NCBI GenBank assembly: GCA_030065585.1
Contig: JASJED010000060.1
Coordinates: 1 to 36,889, forward strand
DNA: 36,889 bases
Origin: Desulfobacterales bacterium
GTDB lineage: Bacteria > Desulfobacterota > Desulfobacteria > Desulfobacterales > UBA5852
Reading direction: 5' to 3'
The notes beneath the pieces are model-generated. The model saw only the letters and a program-made list of their open reading frames with translations, was not told the origin of the DNA and searched no databases. The translations under genes were made by a program, and so were the position numbers. Below are positions 4,528 to 11,845 of the stretch, piece after piece (positions within the stretch are counted from its first letter, which is position 1; every line of letters begins with the position of its first letter).

Positions 4528-5319
4528 ATGAACATTCATCGTATCGTTGCCCGGGATCTGCCGGATCTATGGTTTCAGGCCGTTCACGATATTTTGGATC
4601 ATGGCCGGCGGTTTACCATCGACCGCGGCTCCTACGCCGGCCAGACCCGTCTGGAGTATGATTTCTTCAGCGCGTACGTCAAATTCCCGGGAACTCAGCC
4701 GTTGATTCCCGATATACCGCCCACCTGCGGGATCCCCAACCCGGTCGAGCACGACTATATTTACGGCGGGGAGGGTTACGACCGCTCTTATATCGAATAC
4801 CTGATGACGCCCCACAAGGAACCCGGCGAATCCTACACCTACGGCGAACGCCTGACCCGGGTGCCCCTCACCGGCGACAAGTTGGACTGGTGGCAGGAAG
4901 ACAATCGTGAAATTATCGACCGGCGCCCGGTGGACGGCAAGATGCTTTTCGAGGAGAACGGTCAGCTCTATCTCAACCAGATCGAGTGGATTATCAACAC
5001 CTACCGCGAGTTCGGCGCGCGCAACAACCAGATGGTGCTTCAGGTGGCCCACCCCTCCGACGTAACCCTGGTGGACCCGCCCTGCCTGCGTGCCATCGAC
5101 ACCCGCGTCCAGGATGATACCCTGCACTTTTTCGTCTATTTCCGGTCCTGGGATCTATGGGGCGGGCTGCCGGCCAACCTGGCCGGCATTCAGAATCTCA
5201 AAGACTATATGGCCGGTGAAATCGGCATTAAAGATGGGGAGATGATCGTGGAAAGCAAGGGCTTGCACCTCTACGGCTATGCCGAGGATCTGGCCAAACT
5301 GCGCTGCCTGCGGGAATAG
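4528..5319 (+). CDS. Thymidylate synthase-family protein (archaeal-like ThyA)
   Basis: 263 aa. Active-site-like segment DPPCLRAIDTRVQDDTLHFFVYFRSWDLWGGLPANLAGIQNLKDYMA...SKGLHLYGYAEDL parallels ThyA PCH..Q...L...RS.D..LG.P.N.A....H.Y. Putative catalytic Cys codon at 5083-5085. AGGAG upstream of the start. Confidence 0.82.
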   Translation: MNIHRIVARDLPDLWFQAVHDILDHGRRFTIDRGSYAGQTRLEYDFFSAYVKFPGTQPLIPDIPPTCGIPNPVEHDYIYGGEGYDRSYIEYLMTPHKEPGESYTYGERLTRVPLTGDKLDWWQEDNREIIDRRPVDGKMLFEENGQLYLNQIEWIINTYREFGARNNQMVLQVAHPSDVTLVDPPCLRAIDTRVQDDTLHFFVYFRSWDLWGGLPANLAGIQNLKDYMAGEIGIKDGEMIVESKGLHLYGYAEDLAKLRCLRE

Positions 5320-5331
5320 TGGCGACTTAGA

Positions 5332-5850
5332 TCAATCCTGCCGTTTTTGCCGTTCGCCGGAACGCATCGTTTTTTCTAATTTGTTTCTTAGTTTCCTGCC
5401 TATCCGGCTGCGATAAAAGGTCAGTATCCAGGACAGTAATTTTTTGCTAACGATCATCAACAGGGGCCCAACGACCAATCCCTCGTGGGACCGGATGATT
5501 TTAAGCAACACGATCGGCTCCTGTTGCGGCTTGGTCAACAAGCTTACCAACGGCACAAGATCGTAGAACATCCAGATCAAGCCGAGTGCGGCCAAACCCC
5601 GGGGAAGACGTTGCACGGTTTTAAGAATGGTCTGAAGTTGTTTGGCCAATGCTTCGCTGTGCTGATTGGCGGCTTCGGCCCACTTCCGCAGGGCGTTCGC
5701 GTCTTTAATTTTACGCGGATCGGGAATGAAGTTAATAATATCGCCGTCGATCTGGATGGTCGTCTGGAACTTGGCCCCATCTTTCAAGGCTGTTTCCAGT
5801 ACGATACAGCCATGGGCAAACATCTGATTGATATTCATCAGTTGGCCCAT
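5332..5850 (-). CDS. Hypothetical membrane protein carrying the shared GD motif (protein C of a three-gene cassette)
   Basis: 172 aa. FQTTIQIDGDIINFI motif, then helical and strongly hydrophobic segments (LAALGLIWMFYDLVPLVSLL; GLVVGPLLMIVSKKLLSWILTF). Confidence 0.75.
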   Translation of the reverse strand: MGQLMNINQMFAHGCIVLETALKDGAKFQTTIQIDGDIINFIPDPRKIKDANALRKWAEAANQHSEALAKQLQTILKTVQRLPRGLAALGLIWMFYDLVPLVSLLTKPQQEPIVLLKIIRSHEGLVVGPLLMIVSKKLLSWILTFYRSRIGRKLRNKLEKTMRSGERQKRQD

Positions 5851-5897
5851 TAGATATTCTCTATACCTTCCCTCGTGCGAGACGAATTGATGTTACC

Positions 5898-6788
5898 CTA
5901 TTTGCGAAGCAGCGCCTCGAAAGTACTGCCCACCATATCCGCTACCGTTTTAACCAGGCTCTTCCACATGTTGGTGGATGTGAGGACTGCCTGATTATGT
6001 ATATTCAGGACGGTCTGCTCCGGAGATTGGGCAAAGCTTCGCATGATGCGTGTGGTAACGTCACCTTCGATATCGATGATGGTCTGCATGACAATTTCTT
6101 CGGTGCCCAGATCCCAGGCTTTGCGGAGCCGTAAAATCTGGCTGGGCGACAGATTCAGATCGTCAACGGTTTGAATCGAACCCAAAGAGATATCATTGTT
6201 CCAGCAACGTGATTCGAGATGCTCCGGTTTTTTTTCCGCGCACTTTTCCGCTGTCGGAAGCTCCTTTGGCCCGCTGCTGCCGCTCAGGGTGGCGTACCCT
6301 TCCTTCCCTTTTTTCTTTTTAGGAATGATGCGTTCCAACTCCTTGAAGATACTCACCATCAGTTCGGACTGCGCTTGGATTCTCTGGAGCATACGCCGCG
6401 CGCGTTTCATATTTTGGAGGTTATCTTCAATTTGTTGTCTCTCGGCACGACTGAAGGATAGATCCTTCCCGGATGCCGGCGCTTTGAGTTTAGCTGTTTC
6501 TGATGCGATCTTGATTTTAAAAGCTTTTTCACCTTGCAACGCCCTTTGCCGCAGTTCACCGAATGATCGCATGCCCCCAAATGTCCAGCATTCATCGCCG
6601 CGGACATCTACCCCGAAATCATCTTTGATGTCGATCAATTGGAAATGATAATTCTTAGCTAATTTGCAAAATGCTTCCCTGAAATTGGAAGGCATTTTAT
6701 CGCCCACGGAGGAGCTGTCCTTCAAAATCGTATTGACCTCGAGCTTGAGCAGATCCTTGCCGATGCGCCCTAGAATACTATCGCCCAT
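5898..6788 (-). CDS. Hypothetical protein carrying the shared GD motif near its C-terminus (protein B of the cassette)
   Basis: 296 aa. MQTIIDIEGDVTTRIMRSF motif near the C-terminus. GAGGTG Shine-Dalgarno-like sequence upstream of the ATG at 6788. Confidence 0.8.
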   Translation of the reverse strand: MGDSILGRIGKDLLKLEVNTILKDSSSVGDKMPSNFREAFCKLAKNYHFQLIDIKDDFGVDVRGDECWTFGGMRSFGELRQRALQGEKAFKIKIASETAKLKAPASGKDLSFSRAERQQIEDNLQNMKRARRMLQRIQAQSELMVSIFKELERIIPKKKKGKEGYATLSGSSGPKELPTAEKCAEKKPEHLESRCWNNDISLGSIQTVDDLNLSPSQILRLRKAWDLGTEEIVMQTIIDIEGDVTTRIMRSFAQSPEQTVLNIHNQAVLTSTNMWKSLVKTVADMVGSTFEALLRK

Positions 6789-6858
6789 AAAGACACCTCA
6801 CCTGTTTGCAGGCCATTCCACGCCGATATTGATCTCCGGCCGTGGCGCTGAATCGCGG

Positions 6859-7242
6859 CTATTCGCTTGATCCCGATGGTTTGGACGGCTTCTTGTTCAT
6901 GATACTGACAAGCGTCTCGGCGATCTTCTCCAGCGTTTCCAAATTTTTTTGGATTATTTCCTTTCCGTTTTTTTCACGCTCCATGTGCAGTTTTCTGATT
7001 TCCTGGTATTGATCTTCCATGAATTTGGCGTTCAGGGCCGTGGTAATATCGCCATCAATGAGATCGATCCGCGTGAACATCTCCTCACTGTTAGAGGTAT
7101 CGGCAGTCGCCTTCAGCGTGCCTTGATCCGGACTTAAACTAAATTCTCCAACAATCGTGTGAATCGTCAGCGTCGTCAGGTCGTTGGCTTTTTCCATCAC
7201 GCGATCAAAAAAAGGAATCTTGGGGGGATTTTCGTCTGGCAT
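6859..7242 (-). CDS. Hypothetical protein carrying the shared GD motif (protein A of the cassette)
   Basis: Start chosen at MPDENPPKIPFF (7242), preceded by GGAAAGGAGAGATACC, rather than the longest ORF start at 7344. Contains MFTRIDLIDGDITTALNAKF. Confidence 0.78.
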   Translation of the reverse strand: MPDENPPKIPFFDRVMEKANDLTTLTIHTIVGEFSLSPDQGTLKATADTSNSEEMFTRIDLIDGDITTALNAKFMEDQYQEIRKLHMEREKNGKEIIQKNLETLEKIAETLVSIMNKKPSKPSGSSE

Positions 7243-7744
7243 GGTATCTCTCCTTTCCATGGGGTTCAAAAAAACAGATAAACCGAACCAACGGTTTCTT
7301 GAATCGAACTGATACTCCAAAAGAATTGTTAAGAACACGTGCACGGACTGTAAGTCCAGATGATCGCTGCTTGCTTGAAGGTTGGTTTCGTGAGCGTGGA
7401 TCGGACCGATGCGCTGTGGCCCGAGAAGCTAACATTTAAAAAAATGCTAATTTGCGGTTGGCTTGTCAATATCTTAATATAATCTTGATTATTTGTCATA
7501 AGGTATTAATATAAATATTAATTAATTGCACTCATCACAACGGCAATCATTCCGACGTCGATAAATATTCACTTCATTAGTAAATCTCGCCACCCGCTCA
7601 CCACCAATAGGCCGATTTTCATGCCCCCGATGCAAAAGGTTAGTTTGCAATACTGGTTGGATCAGGCTTGAATTGTGCGTCAGGCAGTAATTTGTCATCG
7701 GTTGCAAGGAAAAATAGCGGTAGGATTACAGGAGCACTTAGGCG

Positions 7745-8767
7745 ATGGCCCAAGGCAACGCAAGCCGTATTTCGAGGATTTGGGAGCGGACGGGTCTCCG
7801 GGGACGAACGCTTTGGGATTTCTTACAGTTACTGATTGTGCCGCTGCTTCTGGCGGTGGTTGCCCATCAGTTGAACATTGCCGCCGATGAGCGGCAACGC
7901 TTGGAAGCCACAGAACGTTACCAAGAGGCGATCTTGAGCGAATTTCTAGATGCCATCACGGGGATGTTATTAACACACGGACTTGAGCAGGCACAACATA
8001 CGGATCCTGTAAAGCCTGTTGCACGGGCCCGGACCTTGACGGCACTGCGAGAAATTGACGGAAGACGCAAGAGAGCATTGGTCGCATTTCTTAAAGAGGC
8101 CAAGCTGATCACGGGCTTCCGGCCGGTGATCTACCTCCAAGATGCTGACTTACGCGGCATTGACTTGAGTGGGATGTACCTTTGGGGCAGTAACCTGGGG
8201 GGGACAGATCTCCGGGCGAGCAACCTGAGCGGTGCGACCCTTTCGACGGCGATTCTGGGGGGCGCCGATTTGCAGGATGCGGACCTCGAGAACGCGCAGT
8301 TGTGTAATGCGTTTTTGCGATATGCTCGCCTAATTAACGCTAATTTGGCTGGGGCCAACCTGATTGACGCGGATCTGGGCCGCACCAATTTAACCGGCGC
8401 CCGTCTCGATGCTGCGCTCTATTCGAAAAAGACGATATTCCCACAAGGCTTTATTGTGGACAACCATGCGATGCATGCGATTATGCCTAGTTCCGACTTG
8501 AGAGGGGTGCAACTGCGAAAGGCATTCTTGAGGGATGTTCAACTCGCCAATGCCGACCTCCGGCACGCCGATCTAGGTGGGTGTCAGTTACAGCGGGCGG
8601 ACCTCAGTGGTGCTGACCTTCGCGGGGCAAATCTATCGGGTGCGCATTTGAATGCAGCGAAACTCGACCACGCAAAGCTCGAGGGGGCGATCCTTTGTGG
8701 AACCACGATGCCCGACGAATCAATTAGTAACCAAGGTTGTGATCTACCCCAAGATCTTCCCAAGTAA
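7745..8767 (+). CDS. Pentapeptide-repeat protein with N-terminal transmembrane segment
   Basis: 340 aa. N-terminal FLQLLIVPLLLAVVAHQL, then many A(D/N)LXX repeats (LQDADLRGIDLSG..., ADLSGADLRGANLSGAHLNAAKLDHAKLEGA), interrupted by an insert of about 30 aa. Confidence 0.9.
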   Translation: MAQGNASRISRIWERTGLRGRTLWDFLQLLIVPLLLAVVAHQLNIAADERQRLEATERYQEAILSEFLDAITGMLLTHGLEQAQHTDPVKPVARARTLTALREIDGRRKRALVAFLKEAKLITGFRPVIYLQDADLRGIDLSGMYLWGSNLGGTDLRASNLSGATLSTAILGGADLQDADLENAQLCNAFLRYARLINANLAGANLIDADLGRTNLTGARLDAALYSKKTIFPQGFIVDNHAMHAIMPSSDLRGVQLRKAFLRDVQLANADLRHADLGGCQLQRADLSGADLRGANLSGAHLNAAKLDHAKLEGAILCGTTMPDESISNQGCDLPQDLPK

Positions 8768-8768
8768 G

Positions 8769-8798
8769 ACAAGGCCGAGGCTGCGCTTGGGGCCTTGT
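8769..8798 (+). terminator. Hairpin immediately after the pentapeptide-repeat CDS, weak terminator candidate
   Basis: ACAAGGCC (8769-8776) pairs with GGCCTTGT (8791-8798). No U-tract follows. Confidence 0.3.
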
Positions 8799-8966
8799 GT
8801 CCGGCTTGCGGTAGCGCTGGCCTGAACGCGCCCGGAAACACGTTGAGGTTGTGTCAGCCACACGGCGCTAATCGGTCGCGAAAAGCGCTGGTTTCTTAGC
8901 AAGGCCGTTGCTCTTTTAAAGACCTTATTTATATACCGCGAGCAGAGCACGATCATGGAGAGCAGC

Positions 8967-10466
8967 ATGTTTAGAGCAAAAAGGAGATGCCCTCGTCGAC
9001 TGTCCAAATTATTTTGCGTCTTGCTGATTAATGTCGGCGTCAGTCTCGTGCCGGCAACTGCCGGGTCGAAGACGGCCGTGGATTTGAGGGGCAATATGAC
9101 TCCGGTCAAGCACCAGGGTAGTCGAAACACCTGCAGCGTCTTTGCCGCGACGTCTTTGATGGAATTCCTCATTAAAGACAAGACAGGCCGCACAGTCGAT
9201 CTGTCCGAGTCCTATAACTACTGGGCTGGCAAGAAACGCGCGCTGACGTCGGACTTTCTCAGAGAACGCTACGCGAACATGGATGGGCTTGCAGGTTTTC
9301 TGGCCGTCGAGGCTTACCGTCATGGGAGCATGCTTGAATCGCAGTGGCCCTATCAAAACCAGACGCAGCTGCGGCAGAACGATCCGCGCTGTCGGTCCGT
9401 TGCCGACAAGGGGCCTACGGAATGCTTCACAGGTCTTCCTCCGAAGAGGGCGCAGCTTCTGCGCTATGCCATCGAACCCACATACATACCGCGAGAAAAA
9501 ATCGGGAATTTTATCTTGAGACATAACAAACCGGTAGTGCTCAATGTCCTCTGGTGCGAAGGGGCCCTAAATCGACGCACCGGCGGTTTCAGATTGCCTA
9601 CCAATACCGAAGTTCAGGACGCTATCCGAAATCATCGTGGCCATGTAATTACCCTGGTGGGCTTCAATCCGCGCACGCGGACTTTCGTCTATCGCAATAG
9701 TTATGGGCCAAACTGGGGGCGTAACGGCTACGGTACGCTACCTGAAGACTATGTGATCAATTACTGCGAAGTCTGTCCTCTGCTCAAAAATCGGCACCAT
9801 GCTTCACCGCCGACCCGGGCGTTTTTGCATCGCGCGAGCATGGGGGTCTCAGGCAAGCTCGTTAAATCCAAAACGGGGGCCGAACTACCCGAAGAAGCCA
9901 CTGGACCGCGACGCCTGGTCGTGAGCTTCCCGGCCGCTCATCTCGTGTATGTGCCCGCTAAGCGCATTGTCCAGGTCAGTGTCGCGGGCGCGGTGGTCTC
10001 GAGCGCGAAGGCCTGGGAGACCAAGACGCTACGGTCCCACCTTTATTTGCTCCAGAAGAAGAGCTGGCGTAATTTCTCCTGGAAAATCAATACAAATACA
10101 AGGCGGCTCTATCGAGCGGAACATGGTTCGGCGGATAAAGTGAAAGGTGTCATGGAAGAATTGACCGGGGAGACGAATCGCCCGGAGCGGATCAAGATTC
10201 GCTTCGATGACGCCTATATTGTCTCCGAACCCACCGAAGGAATGCTTCAACTCATCGTCGGGGGCGCGGTCTTATCCTATGGAGACGATTGGCGCATGCA
10301 ACAGATCGGGCCGCTGCAGTACCATTTGGCCAAAGCCGGCTGGAAAGGGTTCTTCTGGCTTGTGGATGCCTCGCGCGAAAAGCTTTACGCTGTTACGGAC
10401 GCGCGCTTCGGGGAGCACGGCGGGCGCCAGAAGATGCTCGCGGCAGAATTTGAAATCGAGCGTTAG
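8967..10466 (+). CDS. Secreted papain-like (C1 family) cysteine protease with two C-terminal repeat domains
   Basis: The ORF is open from 8955; the start at 8967 (MFRAKRR) has GGAG just upstream. Signal-peptide-like N-terminus. VKHQGSRNTCSVFAATSLMEF (Cys), GHVITLVGFNPRTRTFVYRNSYGPNWGRNGYG (His/Asn). Confidence 0.88.
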   Translation: MFRAKRRCPRRLSKLFCVLLINVGVSLVPATAGSKTAVDLRGNMTPVKHQGSRNTCSVFAATSLMEFLIKDKTGRTVDLSESYNYWAGKKRALTSDFLRERYANMDGLAGFLAVEAYRHGSMLESQWPYQNQTQLRQNDPRCRSVADKGPTECFTGLPPKRAQLLRYAIEPTYIPREKIGNFILRHNKPVVLNVLWCEGALNRRTGGFRLPTNTEVQDAIRNHRGHVITLVGFNPRTRTFVYRNSYGPNWGRNGYGTLPEDYVINYCEVCPLLKNRHHASPPTRAFLHRASMGVSGKLVKSKTGAELPEEATGPRRLVVSFPAAHLVYVPAKRIVQVSVAGAVVSSAKAWETKTLRSHLYLLQKKSWRNFSWKINTNTRRLYRAEHGSADKVKGVMEELTGETNRPERIKIRFDDAYIVSEPTEGMLQLIVGGAVLSYGDDWRMQQIGPLQYHLAKAGWKGFFWLVDASREKLYAVTDARFGEHGGRQKMLAAEFEIER

Positions 10467-11845
10467 AAATCGATCGATCCCGGCGTCCGCGGAAACGGAA
10501 TCACGTCGCGAATATTGCGAATGCCGGTGATCAGCATCATCAAACGCTCGAAACCCAGGCCGAAGCCGCTGTGCGCCACCGTGCCGTAGCGGCGCGATTC
10601 CAGGTACCACCAGTAGGGCTCCTTGTCCAGGCCCATTGCGTCCATGCGGTTTTCCAAAACCGCCAGGCGCTCTTCGCGCTGGCTACCGCCAATCAACTCG
10701 CCGATGCTCGGTACGAGTACGTCCATGGCCGCCACGGTTGCGTTGTCGTCATTCATCCGCATGTAAAACGGCTTGATGGTCTTGGGGTAATCGTAGACGA
10801 TCACCGGCTTTTGGAAGTGCTTTTCCGTTAGGTAGCGTTCGTGTTCGGTCTGTAAATCGGTACCGAAAGAGACCGGATATTCGAATTTTTTCTTGGCACG
10901 CTCGAGGATGGCGACAGCCTCCCGATAGGGCAAACGCTCAAATTGCGAAGCGGTGATGTTCTCAAGGGTGGCCATCAGGGTTTTGTCCACAAAGCGGGCG
11001 AACAGGTTCAAATCCTCCTGGCAGTTTTCCATAATGAAGCCGACCGTCGCTTTAATGAGGTCCTCCGCCAGATCCATGTTGCCCGCCAGATCGCAGAAGG
11101 CCATTTCCGGCTCGATCATCCAGAATTCGGCGGCATGCCGGCGGGTGTTGGAATTCTCGGCCCGGAAGGTGGGGCCAAAGGTGTAGACATCGCCCAGTGA
11201 GAGAGCGAACATCTCCACGGAAAGCTGACCTGACACCGTCAGATTGGTCTCGGTGGCGAAAAAATCCTGGGCATAGTCCACTTGGGCGTCCTGGGTGGGG
11301 ACGTTCATCAGATCCAGGGTGGTGATGCGGAAAAGCTCGCCGGCCCCCTCACAGTCGGATCCCGTGATGATCGGGGTGTGAATGTAGCGAAAGCCACGGT
11401 CACGGAAAAACCGGTGTACCGCGTAGGAAAGCTCGGAGCGGATGCGAAAGGCGGCCCCGTATTTGTTGGTGCGCGGGCGCAGATGGGCAATGGCGCGCAG
11501 AAACTCGTCGGAATGCCGTTTTTTTTGAAGGGGGTAGCTCTCCGGTGCCACGCTGATGACGGTGAGCGTGTCGGCCTGGATTTCCCAACGCTGCCCGCCA
11601 CCCTGCGAGGCCACCAAGGCCCCGGTGACACACACGGCCGAACCGGTAGTTAATTTACGAACCAGGTCATAGTCGGCCATGGCACTGTCGGCAATCACCT
11701 GAATGTTGCCCAGGCAGGAACCGTCGTTGATCTCGATAAACGAAAAGGACTTGGCGTCGCGGCGGGTGCGGACCCAGCCCTTGACCAAGACCTTGGCCAT
11801 CGGGCGGTCAGCGTTGATCAAAGTGGCAATTTTCTGGCGATTCAT
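10463..11845 (-). CDS. asnS: Asparaginyl-tRNA synthetase
   Basis: 460 aa. OB-fold N-terminus VKGWVRTRRDAKSFSFIEINDGSCLGNIQVI, class II motifs FRAENSNTRRHAAEFWMIEPEMAF and GFGLGFERLMMLITGIRNIRDVIPFPRTPG. Confidence 0.96.
   Translation of the reverse strand: MNRQKIATLINADRPMAKVLVKGWVRTRRDAKSFSFIEINDGSCLGNIQVIADSAMADYDLVRKLTTGSAVCVTGALVASQGGGQRWEIQADTLTVISVAPESYPLQKKRHSDEFLRAIAHLRPRTNKYGAAFRIRSELSYAVHRFFRDRGFRYIHTPIITGSDCEGAGELFRITTLDLMNVPTQDAQVDYAQDFFATETNLTVSGQLSVEMFALSLGDVYTFGPTFRAENSNTRRHAAEFWMIEPEMAFCDLAGNMDLAEDLIKATVGFIMENCQEDLNLFARFVDKTLMATLENITASQFERLPYREAVAILERAKKKFEYPVSFGTDLQTEHERYLTEKHFQKPVIVYDYPKTIKPFYMRMNDDNATVAAMDVLVPSIGELIGGSQREERLAVLENRMDAMGLDKEPYWWYLESRRYGTVAHSGFGLGFERLMMLITGIRNIRDVIPFPRTPGSIDF

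Follow-up and report, generated by a model that had tools for sequence, protein, structure and literature searches.

We found that three adjacent minus-strand genes in a 36,889-nucleotide stretch of a Desulfobacterales genome (contig JASJED010000060.1, hereafter the window) encode proteins, designated A, B and C, that share a domain without a match in the libraries we searched, and we consider that they probably arose by ancient duplication and form the subunits of a single accessory protein complex. The three open reading frames, and the peptides that an earlier note on this DNA had quoted from them, were found where that note had placed them (Table 1). The 47-nt gap that it gave between B and C was also correct, and the gap between A and B, given as 69 nt, measured 70 nt. 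The longest open reading frame for gene A would begin at GTG 7344; we took its start to be ATG 7242, which is preceded by a Shine-Dalgarno-like sequence (GGAGAG) and agrees with the alignment of its relatives. Upstream of A there are promoter-like minus-strand sites at 7515-7488 and 7499-7471, which are consensus matches only (7 such matches found versus 3.1 expected across the scanned region). Inspection by eye showed no evident signal peptide in any of the three proteins.

Table 1. Positions of the trio, its shared motif and the surrounding features in the window.
Feature	Coordinates	Strand	Remarks
thyA-like gene	4528-5319		PF00303
Accessory 5.1-kb block	5320-10462		Trio, pentapeptide-repeat gene and papain-family gene
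Gene C	5332-5850	minus	172 aa
Shared motif in C	5737-5763	minus	TTIQIDGDI
Gene B	5898-6788	minus	296 aa
Shared motif in B	6057-6083	minus	TIIDIEGDV
Gene A	6859-7242	minus	127 aa
Shared motif in A	7045-7074	minus	TRIDLIDGDI
AT-rich divergent intergenic region	7243-7744		Upstream of A
Pentapeptide-repeat gene	7745-8767	plus	Divergent from trio
Papain-family gene	8955-10466	plus	PF00112; divergent from trio, overlaps asnS end
asnS	10463-11845

The motif proposed in the earlier note as common to the three proteins matches B and C literally; it fails on A, which has one more residue before the GD (TRIDLIDGD). When relaxed to T-x-I-x-[IL]-x(1,2)-G-D-[IV] it matches three times in the six-frame translation of the window (43,916 residues), once each in A, B and C. 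We gathered homologues from whole-genome searches in the class and one wider scan of genome contigs, retrieved their flanks and read the open reading frames, and from the resulting 28 distinct loci we built A-, B- and C-only profiles that were compared pairwise, with reversed profiles as controls. The homology that the note had suspected proved significant by hhalign for A and B over the motif and helix (E = 3.1e-7), with a second match (E = 1.1e-4) at the N-terminal helix and strand (TLEIxTAVG / LEVNTIxK), and for B and C over the motif (E = 2.8e-8), where the reversed controls gave E-values of 0.15-0.16. These comparisons rule out a chance motif. Direct similarity between A and C was weak (E = 0.004), so the homology link between these two runs mainly through B. 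Searches with hmmsearch gave the same picture: the A profile matched 17 of the 28 B sequences at E ≤ 1e-3, the best at 1.3e-8, without matching any other open reading frame, the C profile matched 22 of the 28 (best 3.4e-10), and matches to unrelated open reading frames numbered zero for the A or B profiles and one, at 0.011, for the C profile. Downstream of the GD aspartate there is a conserved histidine, at +21 in most A and B sequences and at +19 in most C sequences.

Pfam gave no match that stands up for the window proteins or for 10 A, 11 B and 11 C sequences, PHROGs and the PDB (by sequence and by Foldseek) returned only sub-threshold matches, and a search of NCBIfam with B found nothing significant. 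PADLOC was without a match for the window's A, B and C, and the 28 C sequences yielded one match, at 0.0013, in one member. No protein of the trio matched a characterised family, and the earlier note's statement that it recognised no named family holds. We found no published description of the trio in the open-licence literature, and since none of the three proteins could be placed in a known family or described system, within these libraries and that literature, we regard the trio as new. A phage origin was rejected, there being zero matches to the trio both in phage records and in viral contigs.

The trio recurs as an adjacent cassette, a question that the earlier note had raised: A-B-C stand in the same order and on the same strand in 27 of the 28 loci, with median intergenic gaps of 5 nt (A-B) and 4 nt (B-C), often overlapping. 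The exception, L046, is without A, which may be dispensable there; at L057, B is without the conserved N-terminus. The loci fall in at least six phyla, namely Desulfobacterota, Planctomycetota (Brocadia and Loosdrechtia), Chloroflexota, Pseudomonadota (Alpha and Gamma), Acidobacteriota and Nitrospirota; one locus filed under Myxococcota (L044) is a contig of G178, from the window's own order, and was not counted as an extra phylum. Profile searches of 246 genomes of the class found B and C together in 11 genomes and A in 10 of these, and never A, B or C alone at strength, the C profile having two extra marginal matches within open frames of 517 and 585 residues. Fisher tests for co-occurrence, counting the 11, gave P = 6e-17 (A-B) and 2.5e-19 (B-C), values that are overstated because the genomes are not independent. 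The trio is rare (~4% of the sample from the class, 3 of 398 in that from the phylum), and the class profile searches found one locus per genome, likewise one in G000. B was also matched in seven Azospirillum plasmid records, and the cassette was repeated in held-out loci, where the profiles recovered A, B and C in three Azospirillum records and in a further genome of the phylum, G519. By eye, the G519 trio (L106, 4409-6225) is the closest relative of the window form among those seen, its B having a linker of the same style as the window's B (WNNDI, then an LRKAWDLGTE-like stretch).

A tree of B has two clades (100/100), one joining Nitrospirota with two Desulfobacterales and a large one that mixes phyla; its inner branches are mostly poorly supported and the window's row is long. 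Judged from these sequences, horizontal transfer of the trio is likely, by a route that the B tree does not place. Four loci (L036, L037, L060 and L061; 100/100 in the B tree) form a second subtype in which B is longer and C, extended at its N-terminus, has one detected membrane segment. At another locus (L032, 2593-4590) an IS66-type transposase-like open reading frame, identified by eye, starts 58 bp from a truncated A of 86 residues that is without the N-terminal helix, while B and C are intact; this is perhaps a natural disruption of A.

Within the window's own lineage the trio is an accessory. B had no match in G001-G005, of which four are of the same genus and one is of the same family. 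In the four of these with a match to the thyA-like gene (G001, G003, G004 and G005) asnS lies ~35 to 520 bp past it, versus 5.1 kb in the window, and we call the trio accessory because these relatives keep the thyA-like/asnS junction uninterrupted. Around other trios, a papain-family gene lies 81 bp upstream of A in Brocadia (L049) and another 3.4 kb downstream of C in Loosdrechtia (L043), with an M36 fungalysin in between. Similar proteins are encoded downstream of C in three Desulfobacterales loci (L031, 9580-9918; L038, 4778-5158; L039, 3878-4261), assigned to AhpC-TSA_2 (PF13911) by Pfam in L038 and by similarity in L031 and L039. In the three Azospirillum plasmid records examined (L062-L064) the trio comes immediately downstream of a gene pair for an AAA ATPase and ParB, and ParA/ParB was not found recurring directly beside other trios. 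We rejected all of these as a conserved partner gene: AhpC-TSA_2, papain (two anammox loci and the window) and ParA/ParB are sporadic, their recurrence being limited to a few related loci.

The three architectures differ as first described. AlphaFold2 models of A and B, each as a single chain, were confident (mean pLDDT 87.2 for A; pLDDT 81.5 and pTM 0.76 for B). A is modelled as an N-terminal helix, a small beta sheet, a short helix and a long C-terminal helix (residues 77-116), with D65 in the T-x-I-x-L-x-x-GD-I hairpin and the conserved H86 and N100 in the long helix. The model of B begins with a helix and strand 1 (residues 15-22), continues with a mostly helical insertion of ~200 residues, and then has strands 2-3 carrying QTIIDIEGDVTTR, with the GD hairpin at 231-248, and a long C-terminal helix at 258-295. 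Because these ~200 residues lie between strand 1 and the GD hairpin, B reads as A with an insertion. B is the most conserved subunit of the trio, with R222, K223, W225, Q235, G242, D243, R247, H264 and W275 invariant across 28 sequences. C has the shared domain at its N-terminus (FQTTIQIDGDII), followed by a helix and by hydrophobic segments at residues 86-104 and 125-143 with basic flanks; the shared domain is conserved better than the membrane segments.

To call hydrophobic segments in the 28 C sequences we used a hydropathy window of 19 residues and set the cut at 1.25. Two or more were found in 16, the window's C included, one in nine (L037, L036, L060 and L061 of the Nitrospira-type clade, and L041, L045, L047, L055 and L056) and none in three (L050 and L052 from gammaproteobacteria, and L058, where C is cut by the contig end); some of the one-segment sequences may hold a second stretch just below the cut. 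Flanking charge, computed for the 16, is basic before the first segment and after the second, with 0-3 basic residues in the loop, which suggests that both ends of C are inside. The membrane anchoring proposed in the earlier note was supported by hydropathy and flanking charge for these 16 and is less clear for the other 12. A predicted two-helix membrane anchor is supported for the window's C and 15 other C sequences, rather than for the whole family.

Common ancestry, obligate linkage, closely spaced genes in an operon and the presence of membrane segments in one of the three subunits all suggest a heteromeric complex at the inner face of the membrane, and the reading we favour, as reasonably likely, is an A-B-C heteromer that C tethers to the cytoplasmic membrane. 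C would anchor this complex to the inner side of the cytoplasmic membrane by means of a helical hairpin whose two ends both lie inside, and A and B, both presumably cytosolic, would assemble on it through their shared GD hairpins and long helices, forming a mixed oligomer of A, B and C in which the helical insertion of B may be a regulatory or client-binding part. As to role, a conditional stress or envelope function is a guess. A fuller description, which we offer tentatively, is of a hitherto unrecognised complex for sensing or defence that is exchanged horizontally, tethered to the membrane and built from three diverged copies of a single new domain, with two subtypes and spread over at least six phyla. 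The complex reading concerns assembly and the alternatives below concern role, and the readings are not fully exclusive.

The first alternative is a three-gene defence or self-killing system, in which A and B would sense or restrain C and a released C would perforate the inner membrane. It would suit the rare, patchy and near all-or-none distribution of the trio across phyla, the position of the accessory block at a housekeeping junction, and a C that is a small membrane protein with divergent hydrophobic segments. However, PADLOC was empty for the window's A and B and gave nothing above noise for the 28 C sequences, the trio is absent from the phage records and viral contigs searched, conservation is higher in the shared domain than in the membrane segments, and in several C sequences one segment or none was detected. 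A link to defence-island gene sets, raised in the earlier note, was not borne out either, as no defence family recurs near the trio (each listed PADLOC family accounts for 1 of the 83 neighbouring open reading frames, a count with no random background), and we consider this role unlikely.

A larger system, in which the trio is one arm alongside the divergent pentapeptide protein and papain-family protease of the 5.1-kb block, seems to us quite improbable. At that junction the four relatives lack the block in its entirety, and the Brocadia and Loosdrechtia loci also have papain-family genes near the trio; against this, those two anammox-locus genes are the only papain-family members among the 83 neighbouring open reading frames, and the window's peptidase differs in its surrounding architecture. 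Since the other scanned neighbours gave no match, we place the papain family outside the conserved core. Very improbable, finally, is a nucleoid or cargo-positioning complex with a distant YbaB/EbfC-like fold. YbaB structures are among the Foldseek matches of A (3f42, 1j8b and 1pug) and of B (1pug, with an rmsd of 3.0 across 60 columns), the order is helix-sheet-long-helix, and an AAA ATPase/ParB pair adjoins the trio in the three Azospirillum records, but the Foldseek E-values (0.8-2.7) are not significant, hhalign against a YbaB profile, itself shallow (11 sequences, Neff 1.6), gave E-values of 0.44-0.85 that are no better than reversed controls, and ParA/ParB does not recur directly beside other trios.

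Returning to the membrane-tethered complex, three family-less paralogues that occur nearly always together, in one order and across phyla, would amount to an obligate heteromeric machine overlooked by annotation; the genes are annotated as hypothetical in Azospirillum. The trio offers a defined domain, conserved residues (GD and His, and RKxW in B) and a membrane-anchor candidate, and its cultured hosts include Azospirillum brasilense, Plasticicumulans lactativorans and Ferruginivarius sediminum. In A. brasilense Sp7 the three proteins are WP_035669672, WP_035669669 and WP_236778316.

Among known systems, YbaB/EbfC (PF02575) is like A and B in the order of a helix, a small antiparallel sheet and a long C-terminal helix, the Foldseek matches being weak; it differs in being without the GD...H signature, in not forming a three-paralogue operon and in having no membrane member, and the Pfam scans of the window proteins and the 10 A, 11 B and 11 C sequences gave no PF02575 match. 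The CorA/ZntB two-TM transporters resemble C in having a cytosolic domain and a helix leading to two membrane segments. However, it is B, which has no membrane segments, that Foldseek matches weakly to their soluble domains (best matches at prob 0.63-0.75, E about 0.6-3); the trio has no Pfam match to CorA/ZntB, and by eye the alignment has no conserved pore loop between the membrane segments of C. While no trio protein has a Pfam match as a MoxR, vWA or VMAP component, the trio is like the vWA-MoxR ternary conflict systems (Kaur et al. 2020, PMC7159879) in being multi-component and accessory and in occupying partly the same bacterial range.
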